From the NCBI GenBank assembly GCA_949710005.1, contig OX453277.1:2831001-2895000 (forward strand): a DNA stretch of 64,000 nucleotides. Direction: 5' to 3'. The stretch comes from Ricordea florida. Lineage: Eukaryota; Cnidaria; Anthozoa; Corallimorpharia; Ricordeidae. Positions 9,813-14,773 of this stretch are shown here, piece after piece. Under the pieces are notes generated by a model. That model was not told the origin of the DNA. It made no database searches and saw only the letters and a list, made by a program, of their open reading frames with translations. How positions within the stretch are numbered: position 1 is the first letter of the stretch; each line of letters starts with the position of its first letter. Both the position numbers and the translations under genes were made by a program.

Positions 9813-12800
9813 CTATTTTCTTGCACCACTGCTTCGACTTGTTGTTGTTGAACGATAGACTTTTTCATTAGTGAATTTTAACCAAGCCTTTCTATCGCTA
9901 CAACTACCATCAACATGCGATCGGCCATCCTTCTCATCACAGACCTCCTTCATAATAGCTCTGCCGTTTTCTTCACATTCAAGGTAAAGTCCCGTATGCA
10001 CAGACTTGATTGTTTCATAGTCGTGCGTTTGGCTATTTGCGGGGCTGAGTTGAAATTCGTACTTGTTGGAGCGCGGGGGAAATTTTTCACATTTCTGTCG
10101 ATTGTAAGGAAAAACAACGGTAAGTAACAGGGTTTAAAAAAAAAAAAAGCAATTCTTTGATTTCCATTGACCGCTAAAAATATCACAACTTTGTAGATAG
10201 CTATGATTTTTCCTGACCCAAACTTACTGTGTTATATAGCAATCTATTTCATGGGATCTTCTTCACATTTAGCCTTGTGCAATGGCATCAGAACCCTCGC
10301 TTTTTATAATTAAACGCCACGTTTGGCGATATTCAGCCGGCTAGGAGCGATAGCTAGGTCCCGAGTAGACTATTACAAGTCGTGGTGATAAGATCGAGGC
10401 CAACCCATCTTATTATTCACTTAACTATGATGATGATATTCTCAGAGTTGAGGTGGTGGAAACGTCAGTGAACGTCAAGAATAGCTCTTCTCTGTATTAG
10501 CTATATCCTGACGATCTAAGCCGACAAAACAAATATTAAGGGACGGACCATTAGAAAAGTGATGGGGGGGGGGGGGTGGGGAATTTTCAGCTTGCACGAA
10601 TTTTTTTTTTCGCTCACTGCTTGTGCAGGATTTTTTTTTTCAGGTGAACCCCTCTGCACGAATTTTCTTTTACTACGAGTGAAAAAGTCACAATTGGACC
10701 TTCCTTCTGCATGATTGTTTTTTAACCTTCTTCTTTGCATGAACTTTTTTTTTGGCATTTTCCCTTGCATGAAGGATTTTTTTTTGGTTCCCCCCCCCCC
10801 CATCACTTTTCTAATGGTCCGTCCCTAATAGATGGACTTAAGCAGATGCAAAAGAGGATGGATCCCACATTGCTGACGCTTTGCCCACTCCTTCCTTGGG
10901 TTCTATCTTTTAATCCTTTAAGCCCCAACAGTGTCTTTATAGACTTTACTCTGGCTAACGCCAGATGATTGTACCTGAAGAAATATTTCCTTTCCCTCTG
11001 AAAGCAAGTAATACTTTTCATTTTTTAAGTCGCAGCGTAAAGTGAAAACATCCCTCCTGCCTCCATGTTCCTCGTGTTGTCTTTCAGCGTAGAATACTGA
11101 AAAAAAAAGGAAGTGAATTAAAATGTGAAGCCGTTTCACTCCTCAGTAAAAATTCACTGTCAAGTCAAAAGGAGATTGGAACTGAACAAGTTAACTGTTA
11201 GGCAATTCAATGTATACAGAAAGAAGAATAATTACTCATCTTCAATGGAAAGCATATGCTATAAAAAACCCGTTTGCGTCAAATAATCATGTACTTAATG
11301 ATGTAAGTTAAGTCGGACCAGAGTCAGGCTCGGGTACATTTTTTTATTACCGTCAATTCATTTTTTTGTTGAATGTATTTTTCTCGTTTTTAAAAATAGG
11401 AAAAAATAACATTACAATTAAACAAAGGAAAAATGTAGTGTTTGCGTATCTATTAACTATCCATAGCAATGTCGCAATACCCTGTAATAGCCTTATATAG
11501 TAATCATGTGCTTAGTAGTTCCTAAGATCATTGTAAATACTTTAGCTCTGAATTAGTTGAATAAATTAAAGCAGTTGTGTAGAACACTTGAGAGTGGTTA
11601 CTGCGTACTTCACAGAAGTACAGGAAGCCAATACACAACAAGTCTCAAAGATGCTGGAGAATTCCAAAACATAGAGACAATCTTTCAAAATTTAAGACCT
11701 TGTTATATAGTGTTATGAATGATAATTAGAACACTATAAACACGTGTTATAACTATCTCCAGCAGTTTGGTCGCTTTCTGAGAAGGTTGCACACTCTCCT
11801 CCTCTATATACTACACGAAGAAGTATTATCAGTAGATTGGGCGAGTCACGCACCAAGAAGAAGATCGAACAGGGGTGGTGTAAGGACGAGGACAGCGTCT
11901 CAAGATCACCTGGCAGCGGACAGTGAAAGAAAGAAAGAAAGCGGATGAAAATCACATCACCTTGGTGGCAGTCCGCTATGCTGAAGTAGTAGGGACTTTA
12001 AGATTCGAGACGCGACATCTCAAAGATGCTGGACGGCTTTCCTGTCAAAACTATTATCAATGCATCATTTAAACAACAGCGTTTACCTGATATATGGAAA
12101 TGTGCTGATGTGACACCTTTGCCAAAGAAACAACCTGTTGAAAACCTAAAGAAAGATCTGAGACCTATCTCGCTAACACCATGTTTGTCAAAAGTTGCTG
12201 AGGACATTGTTGTTCGTGATTTCGTGAAGCCTGCTGTAATGAAAGTCCTTGACCCTAACCAGTACGGTGCAGTCCCGAAATCATCCACCACCATCGCTTT
12301 GCTAAGTATGATCCATGATTGGACAATTGGTACTGATGGAAATGGATCTACTGTCAGATCGATCCTTTTCGACTATCGTAAAGCGTTCGATCTTACGACC
12401 ATAGCATCCTTGTAAACAAACTATGCAACTTAGAATTACCAGCAAGTATTATCAACTGGACTATTGATTTCCTCAGTAACCGTTTCCAAAGAATTAAACT
12501 AATATATAGATGGATGTTTCTCTGAATGGGGCTCGGTCCCTTCTGGAGTCCCCCAGGGGACCAAATTAGGGCCATGGTTATTCATTATCATGATCAATGA
12601 CCTAGTTCTCAGCGACTCCCGTGTCTGGAAGTACGTGGATGATACGACGACATCAGAAGTTGTCCCTAAAGGTGGAATCAGCAGTGCACAAACTATTGCT
12701 GATAAAGTAGCTGAATGGTCACAGAACAATAGAGTCCAGTTAAATACAGATAAGTGTAAAGAACTCAGAATTTCATTTGCAAAAATGAAACAAGTATTTG

Positions 12801-14773
12801 AACCAGTTAAGGTTGACGGAAAAGAGCTAGAAGTCGTAACAAGAGCAAAGCTATTAAGTATAACCTTATCAAGTGATTTATTGTGGAACGATCACATAAA
12901 TGAAGTTATCAAGAAAGCATCAAAAAGGTTGTACTTCTTGGTTCAATTAAAAAGGGCCATGGTACCCCGTGAAGATCTGGGGTTGTTCTACATTACATGT
13001 ATAAGATCTGTATTAGACTATGCCGCGCCTGTGTTCTACTATTCTCTACCAAAGTATTTAACACACGAACTGGAACTTATACAAAAGAGGGCGCTAGCTA
13101 TTATGTGTCCCGATCTTAACTATAACGAAGCACTTACTCGCATGGATTTGGTCTCGATAAATGAACATCATAGTAACTTATGTAATAATTTTTTTAATGA
13201 AATCCTAAATGATAAAAGCCATAGGCTGCATTATTTACTCCCTCCATTACATAAATCTACTAGATACACTTTAAGGGGTACGAGAACCTTTGATGTCCCT
13301 AAAGTTAAAACGAATCGAGCTAAGAACACTTTTATTATATCGTCAAGTCTTAATGTTGATACTTTTTAGTCCATTTTTTAGAGTTTGCCTTTTTGCTTAA
13401 TCTTGTACATAATTTTAGATTTTATAGTTTGCCAAATATTAATTTATTTGTAATTAGAGTATTAACATTTTGTACATAAATACGCAATTCAGCCTAATGG
13501 CTGCCATGTATTTTCAATAAAGTCTATTCTATTCTATTCTATTCTAAGACGAGGCCGGAAGTTAATTTTTAAAGAGGTGACATATTGCGCATGCTCACGC
13601 CGTCTTCCTGATGGTATCACGTCGCGTCGAGAACGTGGGTTTGGCAATTTTGACGTTCTGTACAAAACGTGAGTATATTCCTTCCACTGCTTAACTTAAA
13701 TAATGATATATTCCTCTAAACATGAAAAATTAGCAATCTAGGATCATTGGACGTAATTTCTGGCGACATTTTAGATCGCAGCTATGGAAGGATTTTGAAT
13801 TTTTTAAATTTCTTTCAGGTGTACTAAGCTTATAAAATGGCAGTGTCTTCGAGCAAGGCTTGTAAGTAGGTCACGAGCTACAACTTCAAAAAGTGAATGC
13901 AAGAGTCTTCTGCATACATTCCTCGTCTCTTTACCGTTGCAATTCATTGCGTTCATCTGCCGCTTAACTAGCACATTAAAGCTTTGTGTGTTTTTATGAT
14001 CTCTTCTAATAGACACAAACGGAGCATTTTCATGGCTATTTCTGCGAAAGAATTGCTGAAGAATCACACTGATAAAGAGCGTTTCGCAGCCGCGTCGTCT
14101 TGCATCGCGACGGGGATCTTAACTTTACTTTTCCCGCGCAAACGACGACGTTCTAGTTCCAGTCCTTTAACTGCCACCGCGTTCTAGAAGCCGTCGCGTC
14201 TCGGATCTTAAAGCCCCTGTTATTCAAGACCTAGCGATGGACAGCAGAAGTGAAGGGACCATGTTCCTGCTGTAAGCAGACATTTGTTTTGATACTCCGA
14301 GTACGAAGCGACGGTATTCCAAAGCGGAGGTTTTATCTCTCCCTTAACGGAGGCGCCCTAACTCTCACGTAATATCTGATGCTACAGGTTCGCAATCAAG
14401 TTGATTCACATTGATATGCACCTAATCTCGTACCAAGATCTCCCACGGCCAGTCTAAAACAGAATGAGATCTGTGTACGAGATTAATATGCATCTTGCAC
14501 TGATACGTTTTCGTATCAAAAGTGTTACCGGAAAATATGATTATCTAGATTTTGGAAATGAAAGGGTGATAATTAAGGAATAGCTCATTATTCTGGCACA
14601 GTACCTGTTCCTTCAGCGCTTGGATTTGTTCCTTTGAAATTCAAATTAAAAGAGTCGTTCCTTTCTTTGTGTTTTTCTGCAGCCATCAACAAGTTTCCAT
14701 CACCTTCCTTTTGGTCGTACCGATACAGCGACTGAATTGTGAAGATGAACGGCTCGCATCTACCCTTGGAAGA
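9813..14773 (-). CDS. IL-1/FGF-like beta-trefoil protein (gene B), 3' exons
   Basis: Three minus-strand exons join in frame: 14605-14773 (phase 0 in, 1 out), 10975-11096 (1 in, 0 out; strong acceptor TTTTTTTTCAG) and 9813-10094 (0 in, TAG stop). They encode about 190 residues of beta-rich sequence with cytokine-type beta-trefoil spacing: FIFTIQSLYR, GDGNLL and LNFKGTNP in the first exon; VFTLRCDLKN, YYLL and EIFLQ in the second; KYEFQL, YETIKSVHTGLYLEC, ENGRAI and RKAWLKF in the third. The S-V...G-L-Y-L-x-C stretch partly fits the IL-1 family signature, but IKS--TG-YL is also FGF-like. The classical FGF C-x-F-x-E motif is missing. IL-1-type proteins are extracellular ligands of Ig-TIR receptors, and such a receptor lies at 36.5-43.5 kb. 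The coding assignment is fairly firm because gene A repeats it exon for exon; the family assignment is inference. Confidence 0.65.
10540..10825. mobile_element. PIF/Harbinger-type MITE, copy 1
   Basis: This is a 286-bp element with terminal inverted repeats GGGACGGACC-TTAGAAAAGT, flanked on both sides by TAA, the 3-bp target duplication usual for PIF/Harbinger elements. Inside are iterated units of about 25-30 bp, each a T tract followed by a TGCA-containing block. Copy 2 is inverted at 33238-33536. It sits in an intron of gene B. Confidence 0.8.
12000..13546 (+). mobile_element. 5'-truncated CR1-like LINE with broken reverse transcriptase
   Basis: The element is truncated at its 5' end and ends in AATAAAG followed by an (ATTCT)n tail at 13525-13546. 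It carries parts of a reverse transcriptase: an RPISL block near 12165 (frame 12026-12415), a GVPQGT block near 12545, and the YVDD active-site box in frame 12590-13369, followed by the thumb/C-terminal region. At least two frame changes separate these parts, so it is dead. It lies in the intron of gene B between exons 14605-14773 and 10975-11096, in antisense orientation. Confidence 0.85.
12590..13369 (+). pseudogene. LINE reverse transcriptase, C-terminal fragment
   Basis: The 259-codon frame starts just before the polymerase active site (YVDDTT) and runs through the conserved C-terminal part of a non-LTR reverse transcriptase (LNTDKCKELRI, SVLDYAAPVF). The N-terminal fingers and palm are in other frames upstream (12026-12415). 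It is a remnant, with no endonuclease domain in the window. Confidence 0.85.

Follow-up and report, generated by a model that had tools for sequence, protein, structure and literature searches.

The window analysed here, a stretch of 64,000 nucleotides from the corallimorpharian Ricordea florida, holds, together with the sequence just to its left, a tandem pair of paralogous three-exon genes (copies 1 and 2) with intact frames and splice sites. Both copies very probably encode small beta-trefoil proteins, to judge from their sequences, and the best reading of the pair, which we rate somewhat above an even chance, is a trefoil of the interleukin-1 (IL-1) type rather than another one. A divergent gene of Ig-Ig-Ig-TM-TIR architecture lies 21.8 kb from the ligand candidate.

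The exons of the two copies are:

14773-14605, minus strand: copy 1 exon A, 169 nt, starting in phase 0 and ending in phase 1
11096-10975, minus strand: copy 1 exon B, 122 nt, phase 1 to phase 0
10094-9813, minus strand: copy 1 exon C with stop, acceptor ...AATCGACAG, ending in TAG
14959-14985, minus strand: weak candidate for a first exon of copy 1 (MILTKVVGE, phase 0 donor), chosen by eye and without paralogue likeness
1375-1216, minus strand: copy 2 exon A, 160 nt, phases as in copy 1 exon A
242-136, minus strand: copy 2 exon B, 107 nt, phase 1 to 0
C6:2830125-2829844 (locus L012, outside the window), minus strand: copy 2 exon C, located by paralogue comparison and genome search
1505-1531, minus strand: weak candidate for a first exon of copy 2 (MFQQALRSQ, donor CAG/GTAAGA), chosen by eye

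Copy 1 lies on the minus strand and its predicted exons, read from the sequence, have canonical splice sites and compatible phases. Exon A is bordered by ...GTTTCGTAG ahead and GTACTG behind, and exon B by ...TTTTTTTTCAG ahead and GTACAA behind. The initial annotation had described three in-frame exons; all three are present on this strand with fitting splice sites and phases, and the motifs it quoted occur in copy 1. The predicted product has 190 residues, with junction phases 1 and 0, and is composed of the exon A peptide SSKGRCEP...NPSAEGT, the exon B peptide (V)FYAERQ...EIFLQ and the exon C peptide YETIKSVHTGLYLECEENGRA...DRKAWLKF, followed by an unconserved tail. The likeness of exon A between the paralogues starts upstream of its first ATG, so that at least one further 5' exon is likely.

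Copy 2, extending over window positions 1375-136 and the sequence just left of the window, is an old tandem paralogue with the exon order and phases of copy 1. Out of 170 aligned residues 62 are identical, with 52.5% identity over 40 residues in exon A, 12 identical residues among 34 aligned in exon B and 35.5% identity over 62 residues in exon C. Identity by codon position is 53.5, 56.5 and 36.5%; as the third positions are the most diverged, both copies are real genes with a coding sequence under constraint. Conservation runs as far as the tryptophan in DRK-[AT]-W, beyond which 3/21 aligned residues are identical. A whole-genome search with copy 2 returned five matches, all of them exons of copies 1 and 2, but it missed copy 1 exon B and might likewise overlook a third copy that is very diverged. 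The flanks, searched over 230 kb on the left side (within a 294 kb string that has 5000 N bases) and 40 kb on the right, held no further copies.

The profile, repeat and intron evidence suggests that exon A forms trefoil repeat R1, exon B with the start of exon C forms R2 and the rest of exon C forms R3, and that the last three exons would thus carry the whole trefoil, as in IL-1beta. Exon A resembles R3 of the same proteins, with 9, 7 and 65 of 2000 shuffles reaching the real score in three settings (9 in the default one). When the pair was compared with trefoil profiles in the default setting, the local score was reached by 2/1000 shuffles for IL-1, 12 for fascin, 28 for the Kunitz inhibitor and 47 for FGF, while for six non-trefoil proteins the figure was 194 to 923/1000. 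The likeness of exon A to the last repeat, the end of conservation at the inferred last strand and the trefoil profiles outscoring the six others together favour a complete trefoil, which in IL-1 ligands has 12 strands. A trefoil starting at exon B and lacking its third repeat was rejected, since the two copies end shortly past a common point and exon A shows both conservation and likeness to R3.

That these are beta-rich proteins of another fold, whose resemblance to trefoils is due to chance, appears improbable. Such a reading would agree with the lack of a significant match in any library searched and with the AlphaFold model of exon C alone, which is all strands but of low confidence (mean pLDDT 47.6). 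Single copies also separate trefoils from other folds less cleanly than the pair, and their scores mix the two: for copy 1 alone lysozyme (101/1000) beats fascin (152/1000) and the Kunitz inhibitor (305/1000). Against this, the internal repeat R1/R3 speaks for a trefoil, the profiles of trefoils are raised for the pair with the six non-trefoils at background, and length and repeat order are those of one complete trefoil.

Neither copy is recognised by the family signatures. In hmmscan with E up to 10, a threshold at which the HMMER filters drop most matches above E 0.1, Pfam IL1 (PF00340) was not matched, and the one weak Pfam hit of copy 1 was RicinB_lectin_2 (E 0.15). The PROSITE IL-1 signature, run as a regular expression, is absent from both copies. 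Compared by eye, both also fail the shorter IL-1 signature given in PMC7144542. A genome scan with PF00340 had a single match, on contig C5 (E 0.857, 17.8 bits vs a cut-off of 25), which was rejected as an IL-1 ligand, being a serine-rich stretch. The PDB sequence search had no match with one copy and seven weak matches with the pair, the best at E 0.16. Relatives were not found in the protein database with joined copy 1 and exon C of both copies as queries, nor in viral contigs with exon C; in prokaryote genome contigs exon C had a single match of 20 residues, in a Tamlana, which was taken as chance. The profile searches proposed in the initial annotation gave no Pfam IL1 or FGF match at cut-off and hhalign values of only 2.6% against IL-1 and 12.4% against FGF.

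For the pair, the real score was reached by the fewest shuffles with the IL-1 profile in six of nine settings and with FGF in the other three. FGF2 and FGF8 reach about the same level as the pair on this IL-1 profile (2 and 3/500 shuffles) and one host FGF exon outdoes it (0/300); an unrelated trefoil can thus score as well, and the score shows a trefoil more than it shows IL-1. The exon lengths of IL-1beta give intron phases that agree with the published ones. Phases of 1, 1 and 0 are reported for its last three introns in PMC4880838. The candidate agrees with IL-1beta in the last two, which are in phases 1 and 0, whereas the third-last, ahead of exon A, is in phase 0 in both copies as modelled and in phase 1 in IL-1beta. 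In alignments built without knowledge of the introns, the codon split between exons A and B fell on IL-1beta V41 (the real place is V40) and exon C opened on E83 (really S84) in 11/18 settings. This match is absent in the other 7/18, is kept in 10/12 of a second set and is lost at strict gap costs; among shuffled sequences both introns came within one residue of those of IL-1beta in 0 to 8/2000.

There is a C-terminal likeness to IL-18, whose FESSSYEGYFLACEKERD aligns by eye with YETIKSVHTGLYLECEENGR of copy 1. Like members of the IL-1 superfamily, the candidate would have a trefoil of three repeats in its last three exons, and it lies near a gene of IL-1 receptor (IL-1R) architecture. It differs in remaining below the Pfam and PROSITE thresholds, in having, by eye, a first R3 hairpin that is longer and an R1 that is shorter, and in its cnidarian host, outside the vertebrates.

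A trefoil of some other kind, such as a fascin-like actin binder, an R-type lectin or a member of an undescribed family, would share only the fold with IL-1 and have an intracellular or carbohydrate-binding role unconnected with the Ig-TIR gene. We regard this as rather unlikely. Fascin and Kunitz (STI) trefoils are above background for the pair, copy 2 alone is closer to fascin than to IL-1 (6 vs 15/1000 local, 2 vs 24/1000 glocal), and the weak Pfam match of copy 1 is to a lectin. In PMC5861070, trefoils are held able to arise independently and even IL-18 and IL-33 are argued to have an origin apart from that of IL-1, so a common fold does not have to imply common descent. However, the pair fits IL-1 better than it fits fascin or Kunitz proteins, whose likeness is at the level of the fold only; its fascin fit is the weaker one in 7/9 settings, and the intron places and phases common with IL-1beta would be left unexplained.

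The FGF family, also a beta-trefoil family, offers a further reading, in which the candidate is an FGF so diverged that the motifs of the family are gone. The best hhalign segment (35 columns) belongs to FGF, a gapless IKS..TG.YL likeness to FGF1 can be seen by eye, and R2 and R3 of the candidate show local likeness to FGF repeats one and two: for the pair, R3 fits the second third of FGF at 3/1000 and R2 the first third, at 11/1000 against 81/1000 for the middle third of IL-1. The genome itself provides the control, as its own FGFs are easily recognised. Of the 21 FGF matches in the host, eight loci were fetched, and from one open frame all of them reach z 7.2 to 14.8, compared with 1.8 to 3.0 for the whole domain of the candidate on the same profile, and this far higher score of the host FGF exons makes an FGF identity unlikely. 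None of the 21 matches is at this locus, and hmmscan of the copies gave no Pfam FGF (PF00167) match. The host matches break at the FGF intron in 18/21 cases (15 begin at profile positions 64-71 and three end at 68-70), and the three that cross it all hold stops; exon C in the FGF register lacks this intron, which lies near FGF1 residue 92. In that register both copies would also be without an FGF-type third repeat, and the C-x-F-x-E motif, reported missing in the initial annotation, is indeed absent from both. We consider a divergent FGF very improbable. The IL-1-like over FGF-like preference of that annotation holds as the better reading, on the strength of gene structure, the second copy, the R1 register of exon A and the host FGF control, but Pfam IL1 and the PROSITE signature fail and an unrelated trefoil can score as well.

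The exons of the receptor-like gene are:

36529-36819, plus strand: Ig domain 1 (Pfam Ig_3, 4.9e-7; splice sites by eye)
37636-37941, plus strand: Ig domain 2 (Pfam I-set, 1.2e-15)
39880-40215, plus strand: Ig domain 3 (Pfam ig, 1.7e-9)
42106-42255, plus strand: transmembrane exon (VVIGAVVLSCVVVILLAVAGFLVWRRNKKRR), by eye
42950-43518, plus strand: TIR (Pfam TIR_2, 4.8e-25)

Of the 21.8 kb between the two genes, 14 kb is a young Polinton-like insertion.

The Ig-TIR neighbour of the initial annotation is real and its architecture is of the IL-1R type, with Ig domains, a C-terminal TIR and, by eye, a membrane span. Its TIR is nevertheless nearest to TLR1/6/2 among solved structures (TLR1 TIR 2.8e-19, with IL-18RAP far below at 3.3e-5), and its Ig domains are nearest to titin, neurofascin and Robo among the best 60 of 136 solved-structure matches. 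The genome of 538 Mb has 29 TIR matches, giving a chance of about 0.3% that one lies this near to the ligand candidate. The cnidarian IL-1R-like receptors described in the accessible parts of PMC5094078 and PMC10236652 have the same architecture; no ligand is named for them there, whereas here a candidate ligand is found near one. Cnidarian Ig-TIR receptors are argued in PMC5094078 to have arisen independently of the vertebrate IL-1R. That the neighbouring gene is the receptor of the candidate ligand is a tentative proposal, less likely than not.

Ligands of the IL-1 superfamily lack a signal peptide and often carry a pro-domain that is cleaved. Under the IL-1 reading the candidate ligand would likewise be a small precursor that has no classical signal peptide and is set free on damage or through processing. 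It might then bind an Ig-TIR receptor, for instance the neighbour, at the Ig domains, and binding would gather the TIR domains and signal via MyD88 and NF-kB.

According to the review PMC9020223, Cnidaria have IL-1R-like genes and an IL-1-like ligand has not been found outside vertebrates; the initial annotation, too, gave such ligands as described from vertebrates only. On that account no ligand is known for the cnidarian receptors, and the origin of IL-1 is placed in the first vertebrates. Among the matches listed in searches of PMC, as judged by titles and abstract starts, a cnidarian IL-1 ligand was not found. It is possible, though doubtful, that an IL-1-type ligand and an Ig-TIR receptor stood side by side in the genomes of early animals, that cnidarian Ig-TIR receptors have ligands and that signalling by IL-1 predates its accepted vertebrate origin by hundreds of millions of years. 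For the cnidarian receptors without a known ligand, the locus provides a named ligand-receptor gene pair to test and, if the reading is true, the origin of an inflammatory cytokine would move back before the split of cnidarians and bilaterians.

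The candidate gene (copy 1) is composed of three in-frame exons, A, B and C. All three exons read by the initial annotation are present, and they lie on the minus strand, with splice sites and phases that join to give 190 residues. A tandem paralogue (copy 2) has identical exon order and phases.

Exons of the two paralogues
14773-14605, minus strand: copy 1 exon A, preceded by an acceptor ...TGTTTCGTAG, followed by a GTACTG donor, ending in phase 1
11096-10975, minus strand: copy 1 exon B, phase 1 to 0
10094-9813, minus strand: copy 1 exon C, stop at its end
1351-1232, minus strand: paralogue match of copy 2 exon A, by tblastn within the window
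242-136, minus strand: copy 2 exon B, sequence reading onward from the exon A match
OX453277.1:2830125-2829844, minus strand: copy 2 exon C, in the left flank outside the window

Both copies are real genes. They share 62 identical residues over 170 aligned codons, with identities of 53.5, 56.5 and 36.5% at codon positions 1, 2 and 3; past the W of DRK-[AT]-W agreement is 3/21 residues and the codon pattern is gone. No match at E 0.01 was found by blastn between the two gene regions, and the duplication is therefore old. A search of the whole genome (538 Mb, 48 contigs) with copy 2 gave five matches, every one an exon of these two copies, copy 1 exon B not being among them. Since paralogue likeness in exon A starts 5' of its first ATG, the copy 1 model probably lacks at least one 5' exon. 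A reverse-transcriptase frame (RVT_1) is found in the A/B intron of copy 1 (12503-13369), and a second such frame at 15912-16808. By eye, the B/C intron carries a short inverted-repeat element with ends GGGACGGACCATTAGAAAAGTGATGGGGG (10540-10830; related stretch near 33.3 kb), and short ATGCATATTAGAAGTGCAC-type tandem repeats lie upstream of copy 1 (15350-15540).

In Pfam no family was recognised for either copy, the best matches being RicinB_lectin_2 for copy 1 (E 0.15) and a cadherin-like domain for copy 2 (E 0.13). By sequence, copy 1 had no match in the PDB and the two copies compared together (the pair) weak matches only. We infer the fold, as AlphaFold on exon C alone predicted strands at a pLDDT of 47.6. 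A two-sequence profile of the pair was compared, with our own script and with column shuffling as the test of significance, to family profiles built from sequences entered by hand: nine members for IL-1, five for FGF, all four domains of a single fascin, and one Kunitz inhibitor. Under default parameters the real local score was reached by 2 (IL-1), 12 (fascin), 28 (Kunitz) and 47 (FGF) of 1000 shuffles, as against 194 to 923 with six proteins that have other folds. Single copies separated trefoils from other folds less well: copy 1 gave IL-1 13, FGF 92, lysozyme 101, fascin 152 and Kunitz 305, and copy 2 fascin 6, IL-1 15, Kunitz 66, FGF 69 and transthyretin 123 per 1000.

Comparison of segments inside the pair showed that of exon A to be similar to the last one (9, 7 and 65/2000 shuffles in three settings), with no likeness to the middle one (1601 to 1950/2000); middle and last are weakly alike (78 to 230/2000). 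Segment borders were picked after the alignments had been seen. As a control, the IL-1 and FGF profiles were cut into thirds and compared likewise, which gave 2 to 686/1000, two of six pairs being below 20. The likeness of exon A to the last segment, the length and the end of conservation at the inferred last strand together support a complete three-repeat trefoil, in which exon A would be the first repeat, exon B with the start of exon C the second, and the rest of exon C the third. The pair is very probably a beta-trefoil.

To compare IL-1 with FGF as the family of this probable trefoil, gap cost and offset were varied in nine settings. The fewest shuffles reached the real score with IL-1 in six of them and with FGF in three, among the stricter ones. 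The first proposed repeat matched the first and second IL-1 thirds at 39 and 3/1000, the second repeat the second IL-1 third at 81 and the first FGF third at 11, and the third repeat the third IL-1 third at 4 and the second FGF third at 3. When left out in turn, accepted IL-1 members scored far above the pair (z 10.6 to 32.4), except IL-33, missed by our IL-1 profile (80/500). Against this profile FGF2 and FGF8 score at roughly the level of the pair (2 and 3/500), and therefore the score alone argues for a trefoil, not for IL-1. The profile-versus-profile comparison suggested by the initial annotation (hhalign) gave FGF 12.4% over 35 columns and IL-1 2.6%, which, with the three settings, would favour a divergent FGF. 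However, all eight host FGF loci fetched (21 matches in the genome) score z 7.2 to 14.8 with one open frame each (best IL-1 fit among them z 4.1), none of the 21 genome-wide Pfam FGF matches falls at this locus, and a motif search bore out the earlier remark that the FGF motif is absent.

We take the coding exons of IL-1beta to measure 47, 52, 202, 165, 131 and 213 (sum 810), so that presumably one of the last two introns splits V40 and the other follows E83 of the mature protein. These lengths give phases 2,0,1,1,0, in agreement with a published account, in which phases 1, 1, 0 are given for the last three introns and the 12 strands are placed in the last three exons (PMC4880838). In 11 of 18 settings the alignment puts intron A/B of the pair, in phase 1, at V41 and intron B/C, in phase 0, at L82/E83; these positions are lost in seven stricter ones. 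Shuffled profiles placed both introns within one residue in 0 to 8/2000 and within three in 11 to 46/2000, phases uncounted. Exon lengths are alike (169/160 and 122/107 nt in the pair, 165 and 131 in IL-1beta), whereas the intron upstream of exon A has phase 0 in the pair, against phase 1 in IL-1beta. Introns of FGF1, which we assume to lie after residue 57 (phase 0) and in codon 92 (phase 2), agree with none of the pair in place and phase. An IL-1-type cytokine, as initially proposed, is thus the best single reading, to which we incline with modest confidence and more from gene structure than from sequence. Neither copy is recognised by the Pfam IL1 model or the PROSITE IL-1 signature, so membership in the IL-1 family is not claimed.

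The neighbouring Ig-TIR receptor-like gene is real. Its exons as read lie on the plus strand from 36529 onward, in divergent orientation to the candidate ligand genes: three for Ig domains, one for the membrane span and one for the TIR domain, with phase 1 junctions by reading. Its TIR is nearest among solved structures to TLR1 (2.8e-19), with IL-18RAP far below; for its Ig domains titin, neurofascin and Robo are nearest among the best 60 of 136 matches to solved structures. Exon A and the first Ig exon are separated by 21,756 bp, and since 14,060 bp of this gap are a Polinton/adintovirus-like element (our naming; 17037-31096), the earlier spacing was about 7.7 kb. The element has 194 bp terminal inverted repeats, 100% identical, and by eye an apparent 5-bp target duplication, ACCAC; it seems to have inserted recently between the pair and the receptor-like gene.

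Frames of the Polinton-like element
24384-25622, minus strand: capsid-like frame (Capsid_N 20.5 bits, under its cut-off)
23749-24549, minus strand: A32-like ATPase (4.7e-12)
25654-26646, plus strand: rve integrase (3.9e-8)
26604-30922: two long frames read as polymerase (Pfam only Endonuclease_7, 4.4e-5)

Elsewhere in the window, RRM_1 frames (3.8e-4) and a Q-rich stretch, perhaps one gene, lie at 57388-58730.

At least 29 TIR_2 matches are present in the genome, and another TIR model (15 matches genome-wide) added no new place. A random locus would lie less than 28.2 kb from a TIR match with a chance of about 0.3%, a figure uncorrected for the search of this window for neighbours of interest. 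One published argument is that the Ig-TIR receptors of cnidarians are independent of vertebrate IL-1R (PMC5094078); in Porites lobata such receptors are reported to be numerous (PMC10236652). That the products of the pair and of the neighbouring gene might act as ligand and receptor is a tentative hypothesis, which we consider rather doubtful.
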